Source: Oxalobacteraceae bacterium
GTDB lineage: Bacteria > Pseudomonadota > Gammaproteobacteria > Burkholderiales > Burkholderiaceae_D
NCBI GenBank assembly: GCA_025352145.1
Contig: JANXTY010000021.1
Span: forward strand, 1 to 64,000
Direction of reading: 5' to 3'
DNA: 64,000 nt
Below the pieces are notes generated by a model. That model was not told the origin of the DNA and searched no databases. It saw only the letters and a program-made list of their open reading frames with translations. Below are positions 56,303 through 62,806 of this stretch, in pieces. The position numbers were made by a program, and so were the translations under genes. The first letter of the stretch is position 1, and each line of letters begins with the position of its first letter.

Positions 56303-56379
56303 CGGGGCGTAGCGCAGCCTGGTAGCGTACTTGCATGGGGTGCAAGGGGTCGGAAGTTCGAATCTTCTCGCCCCGACCA
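56303..56379 (+). tRNA. tRNA-Pro (anticodon GGG)
   Basis: CGGGGCG/CGCCCCG acceptor, CTTGC-ATGGGGT-GCAAG anticodon arm giving GGG, T arm with TTCGAAT and encoded CCA. A clean -10 TATAAT is at 56286-56291, 11 bases before the gene, with TGGCAA 18 bases further upstream as a weak -35. Confidence 0.96.
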
Positions 56380-56388
56380 GAAAAATCC

Positions 56389-56430
56389 AATGGGTTGGTG
56401 ATAGTTTTCACTAACCCATTTTTCTTTTTC
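56389..56430 (+). terminator. Terminator after tRNA-Pro
   Basis: AATGGGTTGGTGA (56389-56401) and TCACTAACCCATT (56408-56420) pair except for one mismatch, then TTTCTTTTTC. Beyond it, CCTACATAG occurs twice in tandem (about 56451-56470). No gene from there to the GH28 stop. Confidence 0.85.
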
Positions 56431-56593: not shown

Positions 56594-58228
56594 TTAAATT
56601 TTCAACGATTTAACAAAACTTTTCACTTGCTGATCTTTAATATCCCGCGAATTTTTTACGGAGAAATCACTTACTCCGCGCAAATCAAAATACACCGCCT
56701 CATCTTGTCCACGCTCAATATTAAGCGCAGTGAAATAGGCATCACTTACATCTTCCAGGACCATGGCGGTACGCTCTTCGGATTTGATGTAACTAATTTT
56801 TACCTGGTCCATTTCAATCGCTTTGACATGACGGAAATAAAACCCATAGGCGGGCACTTTACCAAACATGCCAGGCTCTGGATATTTTGCGGGGTTCTCA
56901 GGCGGGACGAGAGCACTAGCCGCTTTTGAACCACCCCCTTGCGATTCAATTCGCAGGTTGGTAATGCGGATATCTTCAACCGGATGATCAGGCAAGCCAC
57001 TGATCGTCATCGCATAATTTCCCTCCGCACCTGATACCACAACATTGCTGATGTTAATGCGTTTGATACTACCAATCGGCGGCTTGTTGGGGCCACGTAA
57101 ACGCGCGCCCAAACGAATAAAAATAGGATCATTAGCTACGTTACGCATGGTGATATTGGAAATCGCAATATCCTCAATGTGCGAGCCGTCGACACTTTCT
57201 ATGGCAAGTCCTCGGCATTCATCGAATATGCAATTGGTTATGGTGATATTTCTAAAATCGCCATTCGATTCGGTACCCAATTTGATGCGCCCGACTTTAC
57301 CGGATTTATATTCAGGCTTGCTACGTTTAAATGTGCCGTCCAATAACGTGCCTTCGTCAAAATTGCCCGAAACAAAGCAATCCGAGATGGTAACGTTTTC
57401 ACAAGGCCATACTTTGCCGAGGCCGTAAGATGCCTTCAAACAAATGCCATCATCCCACGGGCTGTTCACGCTGCAGTGGGTGATGCGTACATTACTGCAA
57501 GCATCGATATCCATCCCATCGCGGTTGGTATCAATCTTCACATTGTCAATGAAAAGATTGTTGATCCCGGTTGCGAGTATGCCAAAATGACCGCCGTGCA
57601 AAATTGAAAAATCACGCAAAGTGACGTTGCGGCATTCGCGCAATGCGATGGCCTTATTGCCCTCACCAGGCTCATCGGCGGTATCTCTATAACGGCCGGT
57701 TGCACGGTTATACCCACTATTTAATCCCTTGCCATGAATCAAACCATTTCCCACAATCGCAATATTTTCTAAACCGATCCCCCAAATCAAACTATTTTTC
57801 CAATGGCTATGACCATAGTCCTGGTAATTTCCACCTTCTTGATTTGGCTCGGGAAAATCATAGGGCATGACTTTCCAGTCCACGGCTTCAATAGTTGCGC
57901 CCGCCTCCAGATACAAAGTAATGTTATTTTTTAGATGAATCGATGCAGATAAATAGGTTCCGGGCGGAAAATAAACGGTACCGCCACCCACCTCCGCCGC
58001 AGCGTCTATCGCAGCGTTAATGGCAGGGGAGTCCAGGTTTTTTCCATCACCTTTCGCGCCAAATTTTTTCACATCCAACAAATTCGCTGGTGGAATGTTA
58101 GGAGCTGCTAGCGCATTCATTGTAGCGATACTGCCTACCAGCCCAGTTGCCAATGGAAACGCAGGTATGCTGCCCACCATTTTCATGGTGGTTGTTAAGA
58201 ATTGCCGACGGGTACGTATATTCTTCAT
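56594..58228 (-). CDS. Glycoside hydrolase family 28 enzyme, Tat-exported
   Basis: 544 residues from ATG 58228, preceded by GGCGAG; an in-frame start 30 bases earlier is weaker. The N-terminus NIRTRRQFLTTTMKMV is a twin-arginine signal, cut near NALAAP (about residue 42). A pectin-lyase-like beta-helix follows with VKKFGAKGDGKNLDSPAINAAI, NRDGMDIDACSNV near 245, DDGICLKAS near 265 and RIKLGTESNG near 330. The Asp residues and the RIK of GH28 are present, but the usual GHG motif is replaced by DEGTLLDG. It probably cuts galacturonan or rhamnogalacturonan; endo or exo action is not decidable. It is transcribed opposite to the nearby pectate lyase. Confidence 0.88.
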   Translation of the reverse strand: MKNIRTRRQFLTTTMKMVGSIPAFPLATGLVGSIATMNALAAPNIPPANLLDVKKFGAKGDGKNLDSPAINAAIDAAAEVGGGTVYFPPGTYLSASIHLKNNITLYLEAGATIEAVDWKVMPYDFPEPNQEGGNYQDYGHSHWKNSLIWGIGLENIAIVGNGLIHGKGLNSGYNRATGRYRDTADEPGEGNKAIALRECRNVTLRDFSILHGGHFGILATGINNLFIDNVKIDTNRDGMDIDACSNVRITHCSVNSPWDDGICLKASYGLGKVWPCENVTISDCFVSGNFDEGTLLDGTFKRSKPEYKSGKVGRIKLGTESNGDFRNITITNCIFDECRGLAIESVDGSHIEDIAISNITMRNVANDPIFIRLGARLRGPNKPPIGSIKRINISNVVVSGAEGNYAMTISGLPDHPVEDIRITNLRIESQGGGSKAASALVPPENPAKYPEPGMFGKVPAYGFYFRHVKAIEMDQVKISYIKSEERTAMVLEDVSDAYFTALNIERGQDEAVYFDLRGVSDFSVKNSRDIKDQQVKSFVKSLKI

Positions 58229-58626
58229 TTTTTCTCGCCAAAAATTATTACTCAACAAAGGGCCATCCCGTCACTAGCATTAAAGTACGGGAGGAGTTAT
58301 TTACTACACGTGCATCAAGTCGTGCATTAAACCATCGGCACTCACAATAGACAATGTTTGACGCAGAAAACACGGGGCAAAAAAACGATCGCGAGGGCCC
58401 CGCAAATAATCCATATTGCTACGCAACAATTCAATGGCAAGGAAAAACCAATTCGCCTTTCAGAAGTGCCGGCGCTGCATTCTGCCAGCCCAAATCTCTG
58501 TCATAAAACCCGGCGTGTACACAACAATACGCCTCGGCACGTTTTCTAAAATTGGCTTATGATGCTCTGCATCAACACAGCTTTTTCCGCATTCTTGGCA
58601 GGTAAATTTAATTAGAGGTGAACTTC
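58229..58626. other. Divergent gap between GH28 and phaZ
   Basis: No gene is supported. It must hold the promoters of both genes. A direct pair of GTGCAT-type strings (GTGCATCAAGTCGTGCATTA near 58310-58330) stands about 85-100 bases upstream of the GH28 start and could be an operator. Confidence 0.35.
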
Positions 58627-59862
58627 ATGCTTTACCAATTTCATGAAATGCAGCGCGCCCTCCTTACCCCACTCACACATTGGGCAGAGGCTGCTTCCAA
58701 AGTCTTCACTAGTCCCATCTCTCCACTTGCCCACACACCGTTTGCACAACGTATCGCGGCCGGTTACGAACTCATGTACCGACTTGGAAAAGATTATGAA
58801 AAACCAGAGTTCGGAATAAAAACAACCCAAGTCGATGGCAAAGAAATCGGCGTGTATGAGGTCACTACAATCAAGAAACCTTTTTGTACCCTGATTCATT
58901 TCAAAAAAGACTGGCAAGGCAAGCAATCTGCTGCAAAGCAACAAGCAAAGATTTTGCTCATTGCGCCCCTGTCCGGGCACCATTCCACCCTCCTTCGCGA
59001 TACAGTTCGCAGCTTGCTGCCCAACCATGACGTCTACATCACGGACTGGACCGACGCACGTATGGTGCCTTTATCTGAAGGACCGTTTCATCTAGACGAC
59101 TACATTTATTATGTGCAAGAATTTATTCGTCTGCTGGGCCCGGATTTGCATGTGATTTCAGTTTGCCAACCAACGGTGCCCGTGCTGGCAGCAATTTCAT
59201 TGATGGCCACAGCTAAAGATCACAAACTGCCAAAAACAATGACCATGATGGGGGGGCCAATCGACCCCCGCAAATCGCCCACCGATGTCAATACATTGGC
59301 GACAGAAAAGAAATTCTCCTGGTTTGAAAATACTGTCATCTATAGCGTCCCGCATAACTATCCGGCCTTTGGCCGCAAGGTGTATCCGGGCTTCTTGCAA
59401 CATGCGGGATTCATTGCCATGAACCCTGGCCGCCATGCGCAGAGCCATCGCGAGTTCTACATGCACCTAGTCGAGGGTGACGATGAATCGGCTGAGGGGC
59501 ATCGCCAGTTTTACAATGAATACAATGCCGTATTGGACATGCCGGCAGAATATTATCTGGATACGATCAAGACCGTGTTCCAGGAATTCCAGCTACCGAA
59601 AGGTACTTGGGAAGTCGGAGGTAAGCTGGTTCGCCCACAAGATATCAAGACCGTAGCACTCTTTACGGTCGAAGGTGAACTAGACGATATTTCCGGCGCG
59701 GGGCAAACCCAGGCTGCGCATGAATTGTGCAGCGGCCTTCCTGCGTCGATGAAACAAGATTTTGTGGCGCCGCAATGCGGTCATTATGGAATTTTCTCTG
59801 GCCGTCGCTGGCGTGAAATGATTTGCCCCAAAATTGGTGAGTTCATCAAGGCACATTCCTGA
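58627..59862 (+). CDS. phaZ: Intracellular polyhydroxyalkanoate depolymerase
   Basis: 411 residues from ATG 58627; AGAGGTG lies eight bases upstream and overlaps an in-frame GTG. No signal peptide. The catalytic nucleophile is a Cys in HVISVCQPTVPVLAA near residue 180 instead of the Ser of secreted depolymerases, and C-terminal FTVEGELDDISGAGQT (Asp) and QCGHYGIFSG (His) complete the triad. It breaks down stored poly-3-hydroxybutyrate granules for carbon and energy. The gene is alone between divergent GH28 and a 500-bp gap. Confidence 0.93.
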   Translation: MLYQFHEMQRALLTPLTHWAEAASKVFTSPISPLAHTPFAQRIAAGYELMYRLGKDYEKPEFGIKTTQVDGKEIGVYEVTTIKKPFCTLIHFKKDWQGKQSAAKQQAKILLIAPLSGHHSTLLRDTVRSLLPNHDVYITDWTDARMVPLSEGPFHLDDYIYYVQEFIRLLGPDLHVISVCQPTVPVLAAISLMATAKDHKLPKTMTMMGGPIDPRKSPTDVNTLATEKKFSWFENTVIYSVPHNYPAFGRKVYPGFLQHAGFIAMNPGRHAQSHREFYMHLVEGDDESAEGHRQFYNEYNAVLDMPAEYYLDTIKTVFQEFQLPKGTWEVGGKLVRPQDIKTVALFTVEGELDDISGAGQTQAAHELCSGLPASMKQDFVAPQCGHYGIFSGRRWREMICPKIGEFIKAHS

Positions 59863-59944
59863 GTGCTCGCATAGCAACCCTAGATAAGGGGTACAAATGA
59901 GTATCAACTTGTGACCACATTCCCCTAGCTTATTCACACTCTCT

Positions 59945-59976
59945 AAAAAAAACAGGATGCCGACCAGGCCATCCTG
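59945..59976 (-). terminator. Minus-strand terminator with no annotated gene before it
   Basis: CAGGATG (59953-59959) and CATCCTG (59970-59976) pair, extended inside by GCC/GGC. On the minus strand eight T residues follow, so it should end a minus-strand transcript that starts somewhere between about 60000 and 60360. Confidence 0.7.
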
Positions 59977-60024
59977 CAACACTTTCTAGGAGACTGCCAT
60001 TCAAGATTAAGTAAACCGAACGGA

Positions 60025-60099
60025 TTACGCCAATACAAACCGACAACCGGGCCATTCGATGAGACAAGCGGCGTTCCCAAGAACATAAGCTGGGTTCAT
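60025..60099 (-). CDS. Possible 24-residue peptide or small RNA unit
   Basis: On the minus strand an ATG at 60099 is preceded by GAGGAG about eleven bases upstream and encodes MNPAYVLGNAACLIEWPG, ending CRFVLA. It is followed 50 bases on by the minus-strand terminator at 59945. There are two Cys residues. It is unrecognised. The RNA, rather than the peptide, could be the product. No clear promoter was identified. Confidence 0.3.
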   Translation of the reverse strand: MNPAYVLGNAACLIEWPGCRFVLA

Positions 60100-60363
60100 C
60101 TCAAAATAATCTCCTCGTTCTTTTGAATAAATTTTTTTTCTAAGATTTTTTACGGTCAGTGGCGAAACATTTTTTAATCAAAAGATGACATCGGGAGAAA
60201 TGCACTCCCATGCCAAAGTACTAGTGCAGTAGCCGGATTCCCAGGTGAATCATCAATGAAATCAGAAACTTTTTAGTGAGGATCGAAAAATACGGCGCCC
60301 TCGCCTCCTATTTTTACCTATCCCCATCAGGTTTACTCCGCAATAGCGTGTCGTTCTAGGATA

Positions 60364-61122
60364 ATGGCGTTTTACACCAGCGTCTATCCTGCCGTGCTGC
60401 CTATTTTGCCCAAATCCCTTGCCGACCAGATAGAAGATCTACTGCCGCAAACCCAGTGCACGAAATGTGGCTATCCCGCTTGTCGTCCTTATGCCGAAGC
60501 CATCGCCAGCGGCGGTGCCAACTACAATCAATGCCCGCCAGGCGGTGTTGAAGGCGTTGCCAGACTGGCGAAACTCCTCGGCAAACCGGTCATTCCGATT
60601 AACCCTGTCAATGGCAAAGAACGACCACGCCCGATGGCATTCATCGACGAAGCACTCTGTATTGGTTGCACCCTATGCATCCAGGCTTGCCCAGTTGACG
60701 CCATCCTTGGTGCCGCTAAACAAATGCACACCATTCTGACGGATCTTTGCACCGGATGCGATTTGTGCGTCGCGCCCTGCCCGGTCGATTGCATTACGAT
60801 GATGAATGTCACTGAAGAGAAAACAGGGTGGAAGGCATGGTCGCAACAGCAGGCCGATGCAGCGCGTTCACGACATGATTTTCGCACCTTCCGGTTGCGG
60901 CGAGAAAAAGAAGAAAATGATGCGCGCTTGGCCGCCAAAGCGATCGCCAAGCTCAAAGAAATAGAAGCTGCACCCACCTTATCCGCCGAAGAAATTAAGG
61001 AGAAAGAACGCAAAAAGGCGATTATTCAGGCAGCCATTGAACGCGCACGCATCATTAAAGAATCTCAAATCAGTAAAGAATCCCAAAACAAAAAAATCTC
61101 GAAGAAAGATGGGCAGACATGA
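60364..61122 (+). CDS. rsxB: Electron transport complex protein RsxB/RnfB
   Basis: 252 residues. A 4Fe-4S domain near the N-terminus has [17 protein letters not shown] and a further Cys in NQCPPGG. Two ferredoxin motifs follow, [12 protein letters not shown] near 100 and [12 protein letters not shown] near 130. The C-terminal 90 residues are charged and Lys/Glu rich. In gammaproteobacteria RsxB is one of six Rnf/Rsx subunits, but here no other subunit is in the window and the N-terminal membrane helix is absent. It may be a free ferredoxin supplying electrons, for instance to the iron-sulphur enzyme Nth encoded next; that pairing is inference. Confidence 0.88.
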
Positions 61123-61766
61123 ATGCACTACAGCGGCGCGAAATGTTTGTCCGCTTTCGCTTGGCCAATCCGCATCCGACCACCGAACTTGAATTCACGA
61201 CACCCTTCGAGTTATTGATAGCCGTCATCCTATCGGCTCAAGCTACCGATGTCTCCGTCAACAAGGCTACCCGCAAACTGTACCCACTCGCCAATACGCC
61301 CACGGCAATTTACGCCCTAGGTATCGATGGTTTGATACCGTATATCCAAACCATCGGCCTGTTCCGTACCAAAGCTAAAAACATCATCGAAACCTGCCGC
61401 CTCTTGCTTACAGAACACAGCAGCGAGGTGCCACGCACGAGAGAGGCGCTGCAGGCACTGCCCGGCGTCGGTCGCAAGACTGCCAATGTAGTACTCAATA
61501 CCGCATTTGGCGAACCTACGATGGCGGTCGATACCCACATCTTCCGCGTCTCGAACCGGACCGGCCTTGCTCCGGGTAAAAACGTGGATGTCGTCGAGCA
61601 AAAATTACTGAAGGTGATCCCCAAAGAATTTATGCACGATGCACACCACTGGCTGATCCTGCATGGACGTTACACCTGCACAGCGCGCAATCCGCAATGC
61701 TGGAACTGCATGGTTATCGACTTATGCGATTTCAAATCCAAGACGCCATTGCCGCAAGCGACGTAG
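61119..61766 (+). CDS. nth: Endonuclease III
   Basis: 215 residues. Helix-hairpin-helix [14 protein letters not shown] near 112 holds the catalytic Lys, [15 protein letters not shown] near 132 the catalytic Asp, and the C-terminal [17 protein letters not shown] is the Cys-x6-Cys-x2-Cys-x5-Cys iron-sulphur loop. It removes oxidised pyrimidines from DNA and nicks the abasic site. Its ATG overlaps the rsxB stop (ATGA), so the two are coupled. Confidence 0.96.
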
Positions 61767-61906
61767 TCCCCATTTTTCACAAAAACTGCTCTGCTCCCTC
61801 GTCTTTCCGTTTGACCAAGAACACCACAGAACGACCCTCCTGCTTGAATTGAGAGCCAGAAAATACAGTTCGATAGGGAAATATAGCCCAGCATTCCCAT
61901 CATTTT

Positions 61907-62806
61907 TTAACGCGTGCGACACTCAAGAAAATTTCTCCAGGCAGGGACCGCAATGCGCCAGAAATGTTCGACCGACTGCGCCTGATGTAAAGACAAACCA
62001 AGAAATTGCGCCGCTGTCAGCAATACTGAGAGGGCCGCCCGATCATCCCGAGCAGAAATCTCAATGGGCATAGCACCATTTTGTTTTGATAATTTATCGC
62101 CATTCTGATTTCTAAGAACAGGAACATGGAGATATTGGGGAGTAGGATAGTCAAGCAATTTTTGCAGGTACATCTGACGCGGCGTGGAATAAAGCAAATC
62201 TGCGCCGCGCACCACATGGGTAATGCCCTGCTCCGCATCATCGACGACCACTGCCAGCTGATAAGCCCAGAATCCATCCGCACGCTTCAACACAAAATCG
62301 CCCGATTCAATGGCAAGATTAAACGTGACCATACCTTCCCAACGATCATCTAAACGAATCACTGCCGCCGGAGCAGACGGCTCTGGAACACGCACCCGCA
62401 AAGCCCGTGCAATTCTGCCTGGCACAAGGTCATGCCGACAAGTGCCGGGATAAATCGCCGCACCATCGGAAGCAATACCAATACGCGAATCAGCGATTTC
62501 TCGACGAGTACAGCGGCAAGGATAGGCAAACTCCACCAAAGATGCAGCCGCTTTTTCATAAAGCGATTTGCACCTGCTTTGCCAGATGACCTCACCATCC
62601 CAGCGCATACCCAATCGCATAAGAACCGCTATGATGGCTTCGGCGGCACCTGGAACAGTGCGAATTTCATCTACATCGTCAATACGCAAGAACCACTGAC
62701 CTTGATGCACCTTCGCATCTAGATAGCCCGCCAAAGCAGTCACCAACGACCCTGCATGCAAAGGCCCAGTGGGAGAAGGAGCGAATCGGCCTACGTATTT
62801 CATCAT
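61907..62806 (-). CDS. gluQ: Glutamyl-Q tRNA(Asp) synthetase
   Basis: 299 residues, the length of truncated glutamyl-tRNA synthetase paralogues without the anticodon-binding domain. RFAPSPTGPLHAGSLVTALAGY contains the HIGH-like motif, PCRCTRREI (with an added Cys later) is the zinc site, and GDKLSKQNGA is the KMSKS-like loop. It attaches glutamate to queuosine in tRNA-Asp; this window encodes a tRNA-Asp with the required GTC anticodon. Convergent with nth and divergent from the pirin gene. Confidence 0.94.
   Translation of the reverse strand: MMKYVGRFAPSPTGPLHAGSLVTALAGYLDAKVHQGQWFLRIDDVDEIRTVPGAAEAIIAVLMRLGMRWDGEVIWQSRCKSLYEKAAASLVEFAYPCRCTRREIADSRIGIASDGAAIYPGTCRHDLVPGRIARALRVRVPEPSAPAAVIRLDDRWEGMVTFNLAIESGDFVLKRADGFWAYQLAVVVDDAEQGITHVVRGADLLYSTPRQMYLQKLLDYPTPQYLHVPVLRNQNGDKLSKQNGAMPIEISARDDRAALSVLLTAAQFLGLSLHQAQSVEHFWRIAVPAWRNFLECRTR

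Follow-up and report, generated by a model that had tools for sequence, protein, structure and literature searches.

What does a transcription terminator end when it stands on the minus strand between two plus-strand genes and no gene can be recognised ahead of it? The question is raised by the junction of phaZ and rsxB in an Oxalobacteraceae bacterium, within a 64,000-nucleotide stretch of contig JANXTY010000021.1 (the window), where an earlier note had proposed a small regulatory RNA or peptide. The names that it gave to the two neighbours are borne out by NCBIfam matches: phaZ, encoding a PHB depolymerase (TIGR01849), occupies 58618..59862 on the plus strand, with its stop at 59862, and rsxB (NF005415) occupies 60364..61122 on the same strand, with its start at 60364. 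Between them lies a gap of 501 bp (59863..60363) without a gene recognised from the list of open reading frames, from relatives or from profile searches. With a GC content of 0.40-0.45 in three overlapping 250-bp windows, the gap is AT-rich; it is present as a single copy in its own genome. On its other side, phaZ adjoins a rhamnogalacturonidase-like gene (NF049898, E 2.3e-200) at 56594-58258 on the minus strand. Among the literature matches listed, no title dealt with the phaZ-rsxB junction.

The feature that draws attention to this gap is found where the earlier note had seen a terminator with eight T residues. On the minus strand at 59945..59977, folding, a hairpin scan and shuffling delineate a predicted intrinsic terminator, in which a hairpin with a one-base bulge (stem at 59977-59952, -13.7 kcal/mol) runs directly into eight T (59952-59945). 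The 48 nt from 59990 to 59943 fold at -17 kcal/mol (z -3.19), and 3 of 200 shuffles were as good. Like Rho-independent terminators in general, the site has a stable stem and a T tract immediately after it; it differs from them in that a recognisable gene is absent ahead of the 59977-59952 hairpin on its strand, so that the earlier observation of no preceding gene, a tiny frame aside, still stands. The hairpin lies at +90 to +115 relative to the phaZ stop and is the sole site that the scan found in the gap when 6 of 9 T were demanded of the tail. A simple consensus scan of 58500-62000 did not list it (2 sites, against a shuffle mean of 4.4), the loop and bulge rules of that scan presumably excluding a hairpin of this kind. 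Judged by its sequence, it is probably a real and ordinary intrinsic terminator. The hairpin scan found no plus-strand terminator after phaZ in the first 250 nt of the gap; transcription may run on from phaZ into rsxB.

We compared the junction with 109 relative loci from, among others, Massilia, Noviherbaspirillum, Herbaspirillum, Janthinobacterium and Collimonas. Both phaZ and rsxB are present in 99 of them, while 10 are without phaZ within the fetched stretch. The gap measures 0-186 bp at 68 of the 99 loci and 342 bp or more at the remaining 31, counts that were not made distinct and in which the same genome may appear twice. A minus-strand gene was matched in 27 of the 31 wide gaps (tblastn, E < 1e-3) with four frames from these same gaps as queries, and the counts, that of a 379-codon frame aside, include the query's own gap. 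RcnB accounted for 19 of the matched gaps, an SBP-like frame for five and a third frame for five, three of which also match RcnB; one wide gap contains the 379-codon minus-strand frame, which matches only itself, and four (L021, L103, L030 and L070) gave no such match. In Pfam, the identity of RcnB is given by PF11776 (E 2.1e-20, one member scanned), the SBP-like frame falls just below its cut-off (24.5 bits against 26.4), as does the third frame for PF06983 (19.6 against 24), and the 379-codon frame has no profile match. Differing convergent minus-strand genes (RcnB, SBP-like and others) thus recur in one and the same slot, at L028, L038, L016, L012, L077 and other loci.

Terminators at this junction were counted in 82 distinct gaps, obtained from the 99 by dropping those shorter than 60 bp and those whose first 100 bases were identical. 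In 63 of these gaps a plus-strand terminator lies within 130 nt of phaZ, in 16 a minus-strand one, including 15 with both; 18 have neither, and shuffles gave 1.2% and 0.8%. In the window gap no plus-strand terminator was found behind phaZ, compared with the 63 of 82 distinct gaps that have one. Only one distinct junction is minus-only, that of Massilia agri (L028), and there rcnB lies ahead of the terminator on the minus strand. With a laxer rule for the T tract, 74 of 99 had a plus-strand terminator, 45 a minus-strand one and 38 both, the window being included and the loci not made distinct, so that some may be one genome; this rule gives the top minus-strand score in the window to a different hairpin, whose tail is weak. 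The rcnB terminators of three Massilia loci (L028, L038 and L016) resemble that of the window in lying at the same junction, on the minus strand and behind the phaZ stop. They are located at +10 to +20, however, whereas the window hairpin begins at +90 and is accompanied by no recognised rcnB or other gene.

We favour, with a probability of roughly 45%, the reading that a minus-strand unit in this convergent slot ends at the terminator, the gene having been lost, or the unit surviving as a remnant or as a very short lineage-specific one. The hairpin would then be where minus-strand transcription between phaZ and rsxB ends, by intrinsic termination. The slot is repeatedly filled, in relatives, by a convergent minus-strand gene, most often rcnB, whose terminator sits just behind the phaZ stop; in the window the slot is still wide (501 bp), the gene would be gone, and the terminator would be the surviving 3' end of a gene that need not have been rcnB. 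Minus-strand RNA arising in the gap or behind rsxB would now be stopped there, which would keep antisense RNA out of phaZ. If the slot holds or has held a convergent gene, a minus-only terminator in a wide gap is to be expected, and the convergent genes of relatives, with their own or shared terminators, would be a plainer cause of it than a regulatory RNA or peptide.

Searches for a gene remnant gave no match. Even at E <= 1, none of the four frames from relatives found a match in the window gap, so that no RcnB similarity was detected there; the six frames of the gap, with stops written as X, retrieved nothing from Pfam (E <= 5), and its three minus-strand frames nothing from PHROGs (E <= 1). 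The RcnB family was also absent from the search of the organism's own genome, an assembly 97.5% complete. Against a relic stands L011, the closest relative in branch length, where the gap is short and its terminator works both ways. Gene loss is here an analogy drawn from relatives and not a traced event, and alternatively other DNA may have enlarged the slot.

The same locus bears on a second reading, which we regard as rather doubtful, namely that a two-way junction terminator once stood behind phaZ and that only its minus half was kept; it would end no transcript of its own and would merely stop stray antisense RNA. The frequency of plus-strand terminators in the first 130 nt after the phaZ stop among the distinct gaps, and the 15 two-way cases, are in keeping with such an origin, as are the position of the window hairpin inside that range and the two-way hairpin of L011, found at +46 to +79 of a 186-bp gap. 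The hairpins themselves argue the other way: the local alignment between the window and L011 gaps falls beyond the window hairpin and leaves the two hairpins unconnected, the 63 plus-strand hairpins of relatives start at +4 to +62 and that of the window at +90, and the plus side of the window hairpin is without a T tract. A FastTree tree of trimmed phaZ, rsxB and nth proteins from 98 relative loci and the window left the sister status of L011 unsupported. The only printed node above the window comprises 63 tips with a support of 0.596, and we therefore drew no history from this tree.

A third reading, which we consider unlikely, holds that the terminator ends an independent, lineage-specific small regulatory RNA, some 130-180 nt long and transcribed from the gap. 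Orphan terminators between genes commonly serve as a lead in predicting small RNAs, and the gap is long, AT-rich and without a recognised gene. One prediction study reported candidates detected for 14 of the 18 intergenic regions that it had selected (PMC2573895). In our own searches nothing spoke for such an RNA. At gathering score, Rfam recognised only four tRNAs in the whole window, and between 59800 and 60400 it gave nothing credible, the two matches (E 0.21 and 4) being far under their gathering scores; no described RNA family was thus matched. The 171 nt from 60110 to 59940, hairpin included, fold like their shuffles (z -0.03). In a scan that covered sigma-70-like sites, the best minus-strand candidate ahead of the tiny frame (60159-60131) agrees at 8 of 12 bases, a score equalled or beaten in 495 of 500 shuffled strands.

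Conservation was sought at the DNA level in 100 genomes (up to six candidates scored in each) and in 392 genomes of the family (up to two in each), two overlapping sets. Among the genomes listed there was no congener of the host. At E <= 0.001, the gap DNA was found in its own genome only in both sets. The earlier note had named conservation of the frame and stem in relatives as a check on its proposal, and, at the distances that these comparisons covered, neither that DNA search nor the peptide searches described below, with their weak matches, bore it out. At E <= 0.1 matches were listed in 121 of the 392 genomes, its own included, many of them on the 25 bases of the hairpin; we rejected these matches as a shared RNA or terminator. 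Twenty of the match places were fetched, and all 20 sit within stop-to-stop frames of at least 215 codons, one coding context being common to six of them and a second one to two; we regard them as brief matches to coding sequence. For at least three of the places (L140, L141 and L151), local realignment ended on a different stretch or a shorter one.

Of the regulatory RNA or peptide proposed for this gap, then, the orphan terminator has held, and RNA families, structure, promoter, conservation and reading frame have lent it no support; the small RNA is a possibility without backing. We see little probability in a combined scenario, in which a lineage-specific minus-strand small RNA, perhaps also encoding a short peptide, would have arisen after the loss of the convergent gene by reusing a promoter remnant and the terminator. 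Burkholderia cenocepacia, a related bacterium, belongs to the same order as the host. Its small RNAs, ncS35 and NcS25 among them, are reported to be expressed regulators; for the candidate stretch in the window, in contrast, the searches above gave neither conservation nor excess structure.

That the hairpin and its T run came about by coincidence in AT-rich DNA, and have no role, is in our view also very unlikely. Dinucleotide shuffles of the gap produced a site at -13.7 kcal/mol or better before a T-rich tail in 23 of 1,000 cases, but none of the 1,000 combined such stability with eight T. The window as a whole contains 17 sites at -13.7 kcal/mol or better, against 3-11 in each of five whole-window shuffles, and this hairpin alone among them has eight consecutive T in its tail; adding the demand for 7 of 9 T left 12 sites, against 1-3 in the shuffles. 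When the limit was relaxed to -8 kcal/mol, shuffling gave 33-55 sites against the 63 observed, and hence only the strict class stands out. Two further points speak for chance, the failure of the simple consensus scan to list the hairpin and the distribution of the 17 equally stable sites, 10 of which lie between frames and seven inside them in a crude set of frames. The hairpin scan thus yields false positives, although one of the seven (56389-56420) lies just behind a tRNA (56303-56376) and counts as inside only through a doubtful frame.

We also considered a mobile element here and rejected it. There is no second copy of the gap in its own genome, where matches extended over only 14-28 bases (E 0.18 or worse), and the repeats within the gap are short and imperfect. 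Nothing better than E 2 was found in plasmids or than E 7 in phages, and the exact hairpin is absent from viral contigs.

The tiny frame itself, of 24 codons (MNPAYVLGNAACLIEWPGCRFVLA; 60025..60099, minus strand), and the Shine-Dalgarno-like word GAGGAG (60111..60116, minus strand) are present as claimed, the latter, at 60116-60111, just beyond the interval 59945-60110 to which the earlier note had assigned the transcript. The frame, taken together with its start and ribosome site, does not exceed chance expectation: on both strands of 2,000 shuffles, 503 held a frame of at least 24 codons with any start behind such a word, and 240 an ATG frame of at least 20 codons. The frame has no Pfam match and one weak match, at an E of 0.00865 per genome, in a search of 147 other genomes and its own. 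An overlapping frame of 47 codons (59943..60086, minus strand) crosses the terminator stem and is probably not coding either, with weak matches in two of the 147 other genomes (E 0.002 and 0.004). For both frames the alignments extend over short stretches with many W, R and C residues, and we did not accept them as conservation of a peptide, taking them as chance for so many genomes, a judgement made without a shuffle control. The 24-codon frame therefore looks like a chance frame and is probably not coding; a peptide product is unlikely, and translation into a small functional peptide is highly improbable, because the ATG with GAGGAG upstream that favours it is set 11 nt from that word, in a chance-level frame without a protein family. 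Upstream of this frame lies an imperfect AT-rich inverted repeat (60119-60185) with 22-nt arms that are 77% complementary.

By itself the finding means little, adding one more predicted intrinsic terminator. An orphan terminator may nevertheless be explicable by what relatives keep at the same junction, and in these bacteria the junction of phaZ and rsxB is a recurrent slot for different convergent genes. Should a transcript be found in the gap, it could be RNA left behind by the loss of such a gene.
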